In this document: positions 2,657 to 6,214 of the stretch, piece by piece | Numbering within the stretch: position 1 is the stretch's first letter | How the letters are laid out: the number at the start of each line of letters is the position of its first letter | Origin: Planctomycetaceae bacterium | Lineage (GTDB): Bacteria; Planctomycetota; Phycisphaerae; Phycisphaerales; Zrk34 | Direction: 5' to 3' | Length of the DNA stretch: 48,701 bases | Assembly (NCBI GenBank): GCA_002685935.1 | Contig: NYZD01000065.1 | Span: 1-48,701, forward strand | Notes under the pieces: model-generated | What the model saw: the letters and a program-made list of their open reading frames with translations, nothing else | Databases searched by the model: none | Told to the model about the DNA's origin: nothing | Made by a program: the position numbers and the translations under genes

Positions 2657-3385
2657 ATGGCGACCCCTTTGGTTATGCTGGGTTCGGGCGGTAATTACGT
2701 GACGCGATGGGAACCAAGTGGCACGAGCATTCTGAGACGGGTGGGTCGGGCCGAGGCTCAGGGCGACGAGCCGGACATGGATTCGGCGACGTCGAACGCG
2801 GGCGGAGGCGGGAGCGGCCAGCAGGGCGGCCGGCGGCGTGGTCAGATGGTGATCACGCACACGTCGGCCCGTCCGGTCGAGGACACCTGGGAGCCGACGG
2901 CGGCCCAGGAGCCCGAGCCGAGCCGTGGGCTCAGTCACCGCCAGTGGGTGCGGGCGGGGACGCTCAACGCCGCGGCGGGCGCCATCAGCGTCTGGATGAC
3001 TCAACAGCAGCGGGCGCTGGCGGCGGCGACGCTGGAGCTGCGGACGTTCGGCAAGCCGCCGGACGAGGCAGTGGTCGAGGCCGGGCCGGCCGAAATCGTG
3101 ATCGCGGCATCGCCTGGTCCGGCGGTGTCCGCGGCAACCCCATCCCGATCGGAGATCGCTGATGAACCTGACCCCCAAACAACGGAAGATTCTGATCCTT
3201 ATCCGCGACTCACGCCTGACGCGCGGTTATTCCCCGACGATGCAGGAGCTGGCCGACGAGTTGAACGTCAGCAAGGTCACCGTGTTCGAGCACGTCGAGG
3301 CGCTCATCAAAAAGGGCGCGTTGATTCGCGACGCGAACAAGGCACGCTCTTTAACGGTGAGCGACGCCTGTCACTTGCCGGATGA
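2657..3385 (+). CDS. hypothetical protein overlapping the start of lexA
   Basis: Not recognised. The 242-residue reading frame has a strong AAGGAG site before its ATG and GC-rich third codon positions up to about 3160, so it looks genuinely coding. Residues 45-65 are Gly/Gln/Arg rich; residues 92-130 form an Arg/Ala/Gln-rich helix-like segment (RQWVRAG..., WMTQQQRALAAATLELR); the rest is Pro/Ala/Glu rich. No signal peptide or clear membrane helix. The last 74 codons overlap lexA in another frame, an exceptionally long overlap. In the neighbouring frame a TGA at 3160-3162 overlaps the lexA ATG as TGATG, so a single-base frameshift upstream would give a normal coupled end of about 168 residues. 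Sharing the promoter/operator with lexA suggests SOS control; in other phyla small division inhibitors lie beside lexA, but nothing here proves that role. Confidence 0.55.
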   Translation: MATPLVMLGSGGNYVTRWEPSGTSILRRVGRAEAQGDEPDMDSATSNAGGGGSGQQGGRRRGQMVITHTSARPVEDTWEPTAAQEPEPSRGLSHRQWVRAGTLNAAAGAISVWMTQQQRALAAATLELRTFGKPPDEAVVEAGPAEIVIAASPGPAVSAATPSRSEIADEPDPQTTEDSDPYPRLTPDARLFPDDAGAGRRVERQQGHRVRARRGAHQKGRVDSRREQGTLFNGERRLSLAG

Positions 3386-3788
3386 GCAGCGTTCGACGCG
3401 TCTGCCGCTGGTGGGTTCGATTGCTGCGGGCGTGCCGATCGAGGCGATTGAGGATCGTGAGTACCTGGACCTGGATGAACTGTTCGACGCCAATACGGGA
3501 CGGGGACAATCCACGGGCGAGACGTTTGTGCTTCGCGTGAACGGCGATTCGATGATCGGCGAGCAAATCTGCGACAGCGATTACGTGATCTGCCGGCGCA
3601 CGTCGACGGCCCGCAACGGCGAGACGGTCGTTGCACTGCTCGCGGATGGCGAAGCGACGCTGAAGAAGTTCTACAAGGAGCGGGGCCAGGTGCGTCTGCA
3701 GCCAGCGAACGAGGCGTTCGAGCCGATTTTCGTGGATCAGGTAGAGATCCAGGGCGTGGTGATCGGTGTGGTGCGGTCGTATCGGTGA
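3162..3788 (+). CDS. lexA: LexA repressor (SOS regulator)
   Basis: A 208-residue LexA. Residues 1-65 form the winged helix-turn-helix DNA-binding domain (QELADELNVSKVTVFEHVEALIKKG region); the self-cleavage site is IAAGVP with the A89-G90 bond; the S24-type peptidase dyad is Ser130 in NGDSMIGE and Lys168 in ATLKKFY. LexA represses DNA-damage genes and cleaves itself when stimulated by RecA filaments. The recognition helix (SKVTVFEHV) differs from the proteobacterial and Firmicutes versions, consistent with a lineage-specific operator such as the palindrome at 2529-2549. The ATG has a GGAG site 8 bp upstream. It lies inside the 3' end of the upstream unknown gene and ends before a hairpin terminator; the retron RT is tail-to-tail beyond it. 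Confidence 0.95.
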   Translation: MNLTPKQRKILILIRDSRLTRGYSPTMQELADELNVSKVTVFEHVEALIKKGALIRDANKARSLTVSDACHLPDEQRSTRLPLVGSIAAGVPIEAIEDREYLDLDELFDANTGRGQSTGETFVLRVNGDSMIGEQICDSDYVICRRTSTARNGETVVALLADGEATLKKFYKERGQVRLQPANEAFEPIFVDQVEIQGVVIGVVRSYR

Positions 3789-3805
3789 ATCGCGACCGCC
3801 GGCGG

Positions 3806-3826
3806 CTGATCATCAAGATCAGTTTT
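3806..3826 (+). terminator. intrinsic terminator after lexA
   Basis: Six-base stem CTGATC (3806-3811) and GATCAG (3817-3822) with a five-base loop, followed directly by TTTT (3823-3826). It lies 18 bp after the lexA stop, in the gap between the convergent lexA and reverse transcriptase genes. The T-run is short, so efficiency may be moderate. Confidence 0.6.
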
Positions 3827-3892
3827 CAATATTGCCGGATTAGGGTGCAGCACGGGCTGACGGGGGTGGGCGGTGCGTCGCTACGGTGATGA

Positions 3893-4846
3893 CTACTGCG
3901 GGGTTGCCCCGGATTGGCGTTCGACCATGGCTGCGTAGGCCTGCCAGCCTTGCCACTGTGAATCACTGAGGGTCGTGGGTTTGCCGGTGCGGCGGTGGTG
4001 TTCGACGGCGCGCAGCCAGCGTCGAATGTGGCGGGGGAGGCGAACGGTCTGGTTGACGACGAGGCCCGTGACCAACTGTTGTTGATGTCGGCGGCGGATG
4101 TGGCGTTTGCGGCGTTGGTGGATTTCGTAGCCGTGCTGTTCGGCGATGCGATGCGCACCTCTGATCACGGTGTGGATACGCTCGCCGCTGTCTTCGGCAA
4201 ACGAGAAGGTCAGGTCGTCGGCGTAGCGTGAGTACCAGGCGCCCTGGTTCTGGGCGAGACCGGCCAGTCGTGCATCCATCCGATAGTTGATGAGGTTGCT
4301 GAGTCGCGGGCTCGTGGGGGCGCCTTGGGGCAGCGCGCCGTCGTGGGTGCACAACACGGTGATCAGACGGATGGCTTCCCGGTTCCAGCCGATCTGGCGG
4401 AAGTATTTCGCGACGTGGGATGCGTCGGTTGAGGTGAAGAAGTTTTTGATATCGAGGCGCACGACAACGGCCTGTTGGGCGTGGAGCAGGGCGTGGGTGA
4501 CGGTGGATTGCCCGCGTTCGAAGCCGCAGACGGTGGGGTGTGCGTTGAGGCGGGCGAGAAGTCGGCGGAGAATGCGGCGTTGGGCGGCTTTGAGTTCGCG
4601 GGATGGGGCGTGGATGCGGCGGGTGCCGCCGGAGCGTTTGGGGATTGAGAACGTGTTGTAGTTGGGTTCGATGTTTCGCAGGCGGCCTTCGGCGATTCCG
4701 AGCCGTTCGGCGAGCGTCGCGACACTCAGGGCGGGGGGGTAGCGGACTTCGAGGGACAGGTCATGTGGGACCTGGCGCGGATCGTCGCGTGGGATATCGT
4801 AATCCCGATTACTGAAGAATCGCCGGATTAAGTCGAACACGCCCAT
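3893..4846 (-). CDS. retron-type reverse transcriptase
   Basis: A 317-residue reverse transcriptase with no added domain. Palm motifs in order: IPKRSGGTRRIHAP (68-81), VCGFERGQS (106-114), catalytic D132 in RLDIKNFF, QGAPTSP (174-180), Y-A-D-D (208-211), and QLVTGLVVN (257-265). The VTG motif and short single-domain layout are characteristic of retron RTs; no maturase (X) or endonuclease domain of group II introns is present. The remaining 45 residues are the Arg/His-rich thumb common in the family. The ATG at 4846 is chosen over one at 4939 because the longer form would run into the hairpin and a2 repeat of the ncRNA just upstream. The RT would prime on a 2'-OH of the ncRNA and make msDNA. 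Codon use looks like that of its neighbours. No companion effector gene follows; lexA is convergent 104 bp away. Confidence 0.9.
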   Translation of the reverse strand: MGVFDLIRRFFSNRDYDIPRDDPRQVPHDLSLEVRYPPALSVATLAERLGIAEGRLRNIEPNYNTFSIPKRSGGTRRIHAPSRELKAAQRRILRRLLARLNAHPTVCGFERGQSTVTHALLHAQQAVVVRLDIKNFFTSTDASHVAKYFRQIGWNREAIRLITVLCTHDGALPQGAPTSPRLSNLINYRMDARLAGLAQNQGAWYSRYADDLTFSFAEDSGERIHTVIRGAHRIAEQHGYEIHQRRKRHIRRRHQQQLVTGLVVNQTVRLPRHIRRWLRAVEHHRRTGKPTTLSDSQWQGWQAYAAMVERQSGATPQ

Positions 4847-4907
4847 GATGTGAACCCCGTGGCGGGAGATATCAAAGTTCGGGCACGGACGCGCGGCCCG
4901 TGCCCGG

Positions 4908-5017
4908 ATCACCTTGCGCAACCGTGCGACGGTTGCCACCTTTTCTCAAGCAGGCCCAACAGGACCCGGCTGACGAAACATCAGCCTGCGCTCTGCATTT
5001 GAGCGCCCCAAGGTGAT
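4908..5017 (-). ncRNA. putative retron ncRNA (msr-msd)
   Basis: On the minus strand the element opens with a1 ATCACCTTG (5017-5009) and closes with its perfect 9-bp complement a2 CAAGGTGAT (4916-4908). Nested between are: hairpin 1 GCGCTC/GAGCGC with a 7-nt loop (5006-4988), hairpin 2 GGCTGA/TCAGCC with a 7-nt loop (4986-4968), hairpin 3 GGTCC/GGGCC with a TGTT loop and one G-U pair (4966-4953), and hairpin 4 GCAACCGT/ACGGTTGC with a CGC loop (4936-4918). Two short msr stem-loops after a1, an msd part, and a2 just upstream of the RT is the canonical retron order, and G residues follow a1 where the branching guanosine is expected. At about 110 nt it is compact for a retron. Exact msr/msd boundaries and the branch G cannot be fixed from sequence alone. 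Confidence 0.75.
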
Positions 5018-5024
5018 GGTTCCC

Positions 5025-5053
5025 ACGATATGACTCGCCTGGAGGGACGTCAA
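5025..5053 (-). promoter_or_regulatory. promoter of the retron ncRNA-RT transcript
   Basis: On the minus strand: TTGACG (5053-5048), 17-bp spacer, TATCGT (5030-5025), then 7 bp to the first base of the a1 repeat at 5017. Transcription would therefore begin almost exactly at a1, as expected for a retron ncRNA. This agreement of position supports both calls. Confidence 0.6.
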
Positions 5054-5133
5054 CGCGGCGTCGGTGATTAGGTGAGACATCGCGCGTGGGCCATGCGAGC
5101 CGGGACCGTCTCTGCGATGAAGGCGTAACGCTG

Positions 5134-5139
5134 TATAAT
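5134..5139 (+). promoter_or_regulatory. -10 box of trpS (leaderless)
   Basis: A perfect TATAAT ends 10 bp before the trpS ATG at 5150, so transcription would start within a few bases of the start codon. No good -35 hexamer is evident. No ribosome-binding site precedes the ATG, consistent with a leaderless message. Confidence 0.55.
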
Positions 5140-5149
5140 CCCTCGCACG

Positions 5150-6214
5150 ATGAGCAACACGACGGAAAAACCGCGCATCCTGACCGGCGACACACCGACG
5201 GGGTCGCTACATCTGGGCCACTACGTGGGGTCGATAGAGAACCGCGTGGCGATGCAGGACGAGTACGACTGTTACTTCATTTTGGCCAACGTGCACGCGT
5301 TGTCGACGCGGGCGCATGAGCCGGCGGAGGTGAGCGCCGACTGCATTTCGATCGTGAAGGACTACATTGCCGCGGGCATCGATCCGCAGCGGTCGACGGT
5401 TTTCGTTCAATCAGAGGTGCCGGCGATCGCGGAGTTGACGTGGTACTTCGCGATGCTGCTGGGCTACGGGCGGTTGATGAAGAATCCGACGATCAAGGAT
5501 GAGATTCGCGTAAAGAATCTGGGTGAGAATTATTCGTTCGGATTTCTGCTTTACCCAGTGGGGCAGATCGCGGATATTTTGACATTCACGCCGCAGTTCG
5601 TGCCGGTGGGGGAGGATCAGGTGCCTCACATTGAGATGACGCGCGAGATCGCGCGGCGGTTCAATCAGTTGTATTGCGGGGTCGATCCGCAGACGCCGGA
5701 CGAGGATTACGTGGAAGCGGGCGGTGTGTTCCCGATCCCGCAGGCCAAAGCCGGTCGCATCGCGCGTCTGACCGGAATTGACGGGACGCACAAGATGAGC
5801 AAGTCATTGGGCAATGCGATTATGCTGAGCGATTCGCCCAAGGAAGTGACGAAGAAGTGCAACAAGATCTTCACGGGGCGGGGCACGATGGATGATCCGC
5901 CGGTGCTCGAAGGGAACACGGTGATTGAGTACCTGCGTGCGTTCCATCCGGATCAGGCGCAGGTTGATCAAATGGTCGGATCCTACGAGAACTCGGAAAT
6001 CGGCGACGGCGTATTGAAGAAGGAAGCCGGCCGCGTGATCAATGAGCTGCTCGAGCCGATGCGCGAGCGTTGTGCGGCGACGAGCGATGACGACGTGCGC
6101 GACATCCTGCGCGATGGCACGAAGCGCGCCAATGAGTTGGCAGAGCGCACGCTCTGGGAGGCAAAGCAAGCGATGGATTACGATTTTTTCGGCCGCGGAT
6201 TGTCGATCGATTGA
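5150..6214 (+). CDS. trpS: tryptophanyl-tRNA synthetase
   Basis: A 354-residue class Ic aminoacyl-tRNA synthetase that charges tRNA-Trp. The HIGH signature is HLGH (21-24) within TGSLHLGHYVGS, and the KMSKS loop is exact (215-219). Length fits bacterial TrpS (about 330-360). The ATG at 5150 is 10 bp after a TATAAT box and lacks a ribosome-binding site. It is divergent from the retron and followed 49 bp later by gcvT, which probably shares its transcript. Confidence 0.96.
   Translation: MSNTTEKPRILTGDTPTGSLHLGHYVGSIENRVAMQDEYDCYFILANVHALSTRAHEPAEVSADCISIVKDYIAAGIDPQRSTVFVQSEVPAIAELTWYFAMLLGYGRLMKNPTIKDEIRVKNLGENYSFGFLLYPVGQIADILTFTPQFVPVGEDQVPHIEMTREIARRFNQLYCGVDPQTPDEDYVEAGGVFPIPQAKAGRIARLTGIDGTHKMSKSLGNAIMLSDSPKEVTKKCNKIFTGRGTMDDPPVLEGNTVIEYLRAFHPDQAQVDQMVGSYENSEIGDGVLKKEAGRVINELLEPMRERCAATSDDDVRDILRDGTKRANELAERTLWEAKQAMDYDFFGRGLSID

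Follow-up and report, generated by a model that had tools for sequence, protein, structure and literature searches.

A probable two-component retron of RNA and reverse transcriptase, without a linked effector, in a family found mainly in Planctomycetota

We have found that a 48,701-nt stretch of DNA from a Planctomycetaceae bacterium (contig NYZD01000065.1 of assembly GCA_002685935.1; the whole stretch is referred to below as the window) carries what is very probably a functional two-component retron, made up of a non-coding RNA (ncRNA) and a reverse transcriptase (RT) and belonging to a family that appears to be spread mainly through Planctomycetota. Comparison with relatives indicates that the ncRNA, which spans positions 4908-5017 of the minus strand and is about 110 nt long, has its own promoter, a base of paired a1 and a2 arms, two conserved msr stem-loops, a variable msd, a terminator-like hairpin and a coupling to the RT gene. 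An earlier note, made from the letters of the sequence, had described here a perfect 9-bp inverted repeat enclosing four hairpins, two of them 6-bp stems with 7-nt loops, all of which are present on the minus strand where that note had put them. Its reading of the order a1, msr stems, msd, a2 and RT as that of a retron is upheld by the class of the RT, by covariation and by the fact that a model built from the family recognizes the ncRNA of Ec86, the retron of Escherichia coli also called Eco1. The 9-bp inverted repeat would on its own be weak evidence, but its recurrence and covariation in relatives far exceed chance. Folding of the 126-nt strand gives -61.4 kcal/mol (z -4.2), a value equalled by none of 200 shuffles. 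Rfam has no family that reaches its gathering score in the window, and the matches to the window region and 16 relatives are at chance level.

The same layout recurs beside related RTs. RT matches at E<=1e-30 occur in 58 of 392 genomes of the same phylum, and a model-free string search upstream of those RTs and of further relatives showed the arrangement a1...CTTG/CAAG...a2 recurring with outer bases that differ between loci and are nevertheless complementary. A covariance model, R1, built from 11 sequences of that string search, served as the search of homologous loci that had been suggested earlier, and it matched upstream of 32 of the 33 family RTs (loci L002-L034; L030 is missing), the weakest match having E=0.012. 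R1 also matched 19 of 80 named loci (L046-L063 and L090), which come from Planctomycetota and from metagenome-assembled genomes (MAGs) labelled Hydrogenedentota, Methylomirabilis and Acidobacteriota, and none of 7 more distant RT loci. When R1 was run on the 392 genomes it gave 27 matches in 25 genomes at E<=1e-4, 18 of them outside the training set, and all 27 lie on the strand of an independently found RT and no more than about 500 nt upstream of it. The ncRNA-bearing RTs group as a single clade in a quick tree, whose 87 rows come from 48 of the 80 named loci and from 39 of the 41 others, with a Shimodaira-Hasegawa-like approximate likelihood ratio (SH-aLRT) support, used here instead of the bootstrap, of 89 with L063 and 92 without it. 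The single exception inside the clade is the RT of L066 (9836-10738), a decayed copy that is 5'-truncated by about a third, continues into unrelated coding sequence and stands without an ncRNA.

We note several further observations made with R1. Sub-threshold matches (E 0.56-0.77) lie upstream of Chitinophaga and Granulicella RTs (L095, 9230-9321; L097, 9254-9345; L116, 9712-9818) and are possibly distant relatives. In L005 two non-identical ncRNAs stand in tandem upstream of a single RT (1093-1204 and 1259-1367, in the oriented locus) and differ in their msd hairpins, and L006 is a second such member (2612-2702 and 2801-2920, minus strand); these pairs could be two-template retrons. A 22.7-bit match considered as a second ncRNA in the genome of the window was set aside as apparent coding sequence, with no RT noted nearby.

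Pairing in the ncRNA is maintained by changes on both sides of the stems. In 35 aligned sequences (alignment A2) 88.5% of cells pair, against 77.6% in shuffles, 19 of the 28 pairs are altered in both partners, and there are 121 double-change cells against 42.7 in shuffles (0 of 500 as high); in 18 held-out sequences (A5) 88.9% of cells pair, 20 of the 28 pairs are altered in both partners, and the double-change cells number 71 against 24.5 (again 0 of 500). Unconstrained RNAalifold recovers a1/a2, stem-loop 1 (SL1) and stem-loop 2 (SL2) from the aligned set. The compensatory changes for which the earlier note had looked to homologues are thus present in a1/a2, SL1 and SL2, and are weakly supported in the third hairpin. 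SL2, whose pattern has no second match in the window, can be drawn as 6 bp with a 7-nt loop or, if a U-G pair is counted, as 8 bp with a UUU loop.

The RT is an intact frame whose YADD and VTG motifs, reported at the outset, are present both in the window and in the alignment of the family (A3, 25 of the 33 family loci), which contains no fusion of the RT to an effector. ATG 4846 is the most plausible start, giving 317 aa; GTG 4939 was considered and rejected because it overlaps the ncRNA. RVT_1 is the sole Pfam domain (5e-16) and the nearest solved relative in the PDB is the Ec86 RT (E=3e-38). The top PADLOC model is RT_XIII (269 bits, 2e-80), followed by II-A (235) and X (232), while the NCBIfam model retron_St85_RT gives 214.6 bits, under its cut-off of 235, and a group II maturase model gives 44 bits against a cut-off of 300. 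The RT therefore scores with retrons, and not with the group II introns that, like diversity-generating retroelements (DGRs), had been named earlier as a placement to watch for. RT_XIII is the best PADLOC model for the window RT and for four other family RTs scanned (241-290 bits), whereas RTs that score like core type XIII (Nannocystis L072, Chitinophaga L087) reach 478-520 bits, which argues for a retron RT on its own branch with no clear PADLOC type; as judged from these scores, the clade fits none of the PADLOC retron types well. The ratio of non-synonymous to synonymous change (dN/dS) is 0.06-0.38 in 7 of 8 pairs, those with a finite value, the eighth being saturated, which indicates purifying selection on the RT.

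The ncRNA also seems to be transcribed from its own signals. A promoter scan of positions 3700-5300 returned one site (shuffles mean 0.4), the TTGACG-17-TATCGT described earlier with its start on a1, and its position is conserved: at least 8 of 12 consensus bases occur at this fixed place in 31 of 53 distinct ncRNAs (shuffles mean 2.5, max 7; shifted positions 0-2). The RT gene is set apart from the ncRNA by a hairpin that the earlier description lacked. A stem of at least 7 pairs just after a2 is found in 45 of 52 relatives (shuffles mean 24.2, max 29), and the hairpin together with at least 4 T in the next 10 positions in 25 of 52 (shuffles mean 3.9, max 8); one locus containing N was left out of this count (52 of 53), and the mean z in the msd-distance set includes that row. 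We infer that the ncRNA is a separate transcript and that the RT is made by read-through.

The clearest link to a known retron comes from Ec86. With its filters off, R1 ranks the genuine ncRNA first in the 5,170 bases of the Ec86 locus of E. coli C (23.4 bits, E=2e-4; the next match has 10.1 bits) and aligns its a1, SL2 (GUUUCG) and a2 in register with the family. The unpaired G after a1 is, by alignment and model, in register with that of Ec86 and conserved in the family. If the Ec86 G after a1 is the branch point, as we take it to be, and if the ends of Ec86 DNA are where we presume them to be, this register would make position 5008 the branch guanosine and 4918 the first template base. A TTGAG box at 4949-4945 resembles the place where Ec86 DNA presumably ends, and the retron DNA is accordingly predicted at about 33 nt, shorter than the 40-70 nt of the earlier note. 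The distance from the template to the base of SL2 is 50 nt in the window, which is the ceiling for the DNA if synthesis stops by SL2, and 38-113 nt (median 60) across the family, where some model matches, for example that of L032, are trimmed.

The msd itself combines a fixed loop with a free stem. The loop T(C/T)GCA on a stem of at least 4 pairs occurs in 18 of the 53 distinct ncRNAs (shuffles mean 0.135, max 3), and stem positions take up to four Watson-Crick types. In 13 of these 18 no more than 1 nt separates the hairpin from the G(C)AAG of a2, so that the DNA would begin with the hairpin. The DNA strand of the window msd folds with z -3.2. Other members have longer msd stems, and long near-perfect palindromes (about 18-30 bp) lie in the msd region of L004 (1167-1227), L032 (2639-2708) and L027 (within 2513-2651). 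The 25- and 30-bp stems of L004 and L032 were considered as dispersed inserted repeats, but they are single-copy in their genomes (G220 and G392) and would therefore be part of the retron.

Table 1. Positions of the retron features in the window.
Feature	Position	Strand	Basis
a1 arm ATCACCTTG	5009..5017	-	perfect complement of a2; outer pairs covary, double-sided changes in 6 of 8 modelled a1/a2 pairs
a2 arm CAAGGTGAT	4908..4916	-	complement of a1; covariation as for a1
msr stem-loop 1, GCGCTC/AAATGCA/GAGCGC, 6 bp, 7-nt loop	4988..5006	-	double-sided changes in 5 of 6 pairs (A2) and 6 of 6 (held-out A5)
msr stem-loop 2 GGCTGATGTTTCGTCAGCC, core G-UUU-CG most conserved	4968..4986	-	99.6% and 99.3% of cells paired, double changes; aligns with GGAUGUUGUUUCGGCAUCC of Ec86
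Third hairpin, starting GGGTC, likely region of the msr/msd border	4952..4967	-	fold; weak covariation (63%/72% of cells paired)
Predicted msd template, about 33 nt of DNA; hairpin GCAACCG-TCGCA-CGGTTGC at 4936-4918	4918..4950	-	predicted from Ec86 register and TTGAG box
Predicted branch guanosine (2'-OH primer)	5008	-	predicted: first unpaired G after a1, in register with Ec86 G
Terminator-like hairpin CGGGCACGG...CCGTGCCCG then AACTTTGATAT	4880..4906	-	between ncRNA and RT; conserved in relatives
Sigma70-type promoter TTGACG-17-TATCGT	5025..5053	-	transcription would start at or next to a1
Retron-type RT, 317 aa, intact, YADD and VTG	3893..4846	-	Pfam, PADLOC and PDB matches; family alignment A3

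Several points count against the retron reading or some part of it. Comparison supports the reading strongly, and the branched RNA-DNA product (msDNA) is a predicted one. The alignments were fitted to R1, and for this reason we give most weight to the model-free string finds and to the genome scan. In the held-out A5 set further pair types number 38 against 38.7 in shuffles (330 of 500 as high), and the third hairpin, with 63-72% of cells paired, is missing from the RNAalifold consensus. A good promoter match is missing in 22 of the 53 ncRNAs; in the window the T tract after the terminator-like hairpin is weak and a terminator scan does not list 4880-4906; and the termination box is found in only 30 of 53, by a loose pattern. 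At the place of the NAxxH motif of most family members, the window RT reads HALLH (alignment A3). As regards a role in defence, there is no effector or defence island beside the window retron.

Across the family, too, the genes beside the retron point away from a linked effector. When the two nearest genes of at least 50 aa on each side were compared, no neighbour family was found in more than 4 of the 53 loci (40 of which have at least 3 kb on both sides). No PADLOC or Pfam family matches more than 2 of the 98 flanking proteins (for Pfam, among the top 25 of 154 listed). A neighbour cluster from six loci proved to be an antisense open reading frame over the RT and no true neighbour, while the real recurring neighbours, a 6-phosphogluconate dehydrogenase, an aminotransferase, an MgtE transporter and a DUF1559 protein, are housekeeping genes shared by related genomes. 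The next downstream gene is on the RT strand in 26 of 50 loci, within 60 nt in 10 of these. Because no gene family recurs beside the RT, this appears to be a retron family without a linked effector, and the earlier description of a complete retron thus stands for the RT and ncRNA but not for a linked effector, which was found in none of the 53 loci.

The members of the family are mainly Planctomycetota. Loci L004, L005, L031 and L032, from the host family of the window, sit apart in the RT tree, a scatter that suggests either transfer or duplication long ago. Phages and plasmids as carriers were considered and rejected: among the matches listed from phage, plasmid and viral collections (the best 15 of 40, 15 of 175 and 80 of 123) there are only distant RTs, the best about 41% identical, and R1 found nothing better than E=0.32 in 80 viral loci. 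In the window the RT frame is flanked by the gene for tryptophanyl-tRNA synthetase (TrpRS; 5150-6214, divergent) and by the lexA gene (3162-3788, convergent). We note that a TrpRS gene is also near the retron in L129 (genome G077, same family as the window), about 2 kb further upstream, which hints at a shared site. The planctomycete host proposed earlier is backed by a genome of the window's phylum (G079), which shares both its ncRNA and a contig of 18,007 bases with a named Planctomycetota MAG (L056, dropped as a duplicate of L014).

By analogy with Ec86, the RT would bind the msr through SL2 and its UUU loop, prime from the 2'-OH of G5008 just after a1, and copy from 4918 to a stop near the TTGAG box. 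The product would be a DNA of about 33 nt that opens with a 7-bp hairpin and is attached to RNA, with the template trimmed by the host RNase HI, which the window genome encodes, and the low need for RT met by read-through of the hairpin. PMC8989520 shows that the DNA is shaped by RNase H1 and is still made by ncRNA and RT alone.

What such a complex would do is a matter on which we can offer only graded suggestions. The leading candidate, at somewhat under even odds, is an antitoxin-like complex that would sense phage or damage and hold an effector coded for at another chromosomal site, the remaining probability being shared by an RT-DNA complex acting alone and a non-defence role. The corresponding history, an abortive-infection retron whose effector acts in trans and whose linked copy was lost before the family spread, is a plausible if tentative proposal: the patchy distribution (ncRNA in 25 of 392 genomes) looks like that of a transferable defence trait, the RT tree departs from host families, and single retrons without an apparent effector are described in passages of PMC12548924; against this, a linked effector was found in none of the 53 loci, and no search of whole genomes for one that co-occurs was made. 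The alternative that the RT-DNA-RNA complex acts alone or on host functions (regulation, DNA repair or as a decoy), being a chromosomal trait outside defence like the myxobacterial retrons, which have long been unexplained, strikes us as rather unlikely, since a core housekeeping function would be expected to be less patchy and more vertical than what is seen. Yet the neighbours are housekeeping genes that differ in nearly every locus, the phage, plasmid and viral matches listed include no member of the family, the T(C/T)GCA loop is kept while its stem changes, and, according to PMC8867640, there are retrons with no effector gene close by, which may have taken on other functions.

Two further explanations would deny the locus a function as a retron. 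A degenerating RT beside a fossil RNA structure might be suspected from the truncated relative L066 and from the variant of the NAxxH motif in the window RT, but this is very unlikely given the 317-aa open frame, the intact YADD, the perfect a1/a2 pairing, the retained promoter and the dN/dS values of relatives. An origin as a defence-associated RT (DRT), group II intron, DGR or Abi-type RT beside an unrelated structured RNA, suggested by weak cross-matches to group II and DRT models, is scarcely credible; retron models lead by a wide margin, on which ground a group II intron, DGR or DRT origin was rejected, and R1 finds the Ec86 ncRNA in register.

Returning to the two-component retron, we can imagine, as a doubtful but explicit extension, a two-part chromosomal device in which an independently transcribed and terminated RNA serves as template for a DNA of about 33 nt, shorter than any so far proposed for a retron and forming a hairpin of fixed loop and free stem, with no toxin adjacent, and in which the DNA or the DNA-RT complex would be the signal or effector acting on a host partner in trans. 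Most studied retrons are three-part phage-defence units. A family in which selection appears to maintain the RNA, the RT and a fixed DNA loop, with no effector linked to them, makes the role of an effector-free retron directly testable, outside the usual model bacteria, and a minimal self-contained ncRNA of about 110 nt may interest those who use retrons for making DNA in cells.

Among known systems, Ec86 (type II-A) is close in several respects: its RT shows 34% identity to the family profile across 248 columns, and its ncRNA has in the same register a1 (CCCUUA/CCUUG), SL1, SL2 with GUUUCG, and a2. Unlike the retron of the window, Ec86 has an effector gene just upstream of the RT and phage genes alongside, and its ncRNA is longer (a 170-nt query was folded); the window family, in contrast, has a promoter of its own, a hairpin ahead of the RT, no effector and no phage genes, and the msd of the window is at most 50 nt. 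The DNA of Ec86 is given as 86 nt in the corresponding section of PMC8989520. On both features used for type II-A, a retron_St85_RT score above the cut-off and an NDT-type effector, the retron of the window differs, with 214.6 bits against 235 and no effector beside it. RT_XIII is the best PADLOC model for the window RT and for the four other family RTs scanned, but the core-like type XIII RTs (478-520 bits) fall outside the ncRNA clade in the quick tree. Of the partner genes that we take to be those of type XIII (HEAT-ARM_XIII and others), none stands beside the window retron, where the neighbours are TrpRS and LexA, and HEAT-ARM_XIII is found in 2 of 98 flanking proteins of relatives, weakly (best E 7e-10).

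Among the papers listed by literature searches there was none on a planctomycete or an effector-free retron family, and the published 2020 classification and 2024 census may already list some of these RTs. Myxobacterial retrons of the Mx162 type have no known linked effector and have long resided in the chromosome. Evidence for their vertical inheritance is reported in part of PMC8867640. The RTs of Myxococcus and Polyangium (L067, L071 and L083) are about 39-42% identical, branch elsewhere and have no R1 match, unlike the window family. Lastly, Retron-Bth1, as portrayed in portions of PMC12548924, resembles the window retron in having an RT and an ncRNA and no obvious effector; whereas Bth1 is there an isolated case, on an extrachromosomal element and with an RT interrupted by an intron, the layout of the window retron is common to 51 loci.
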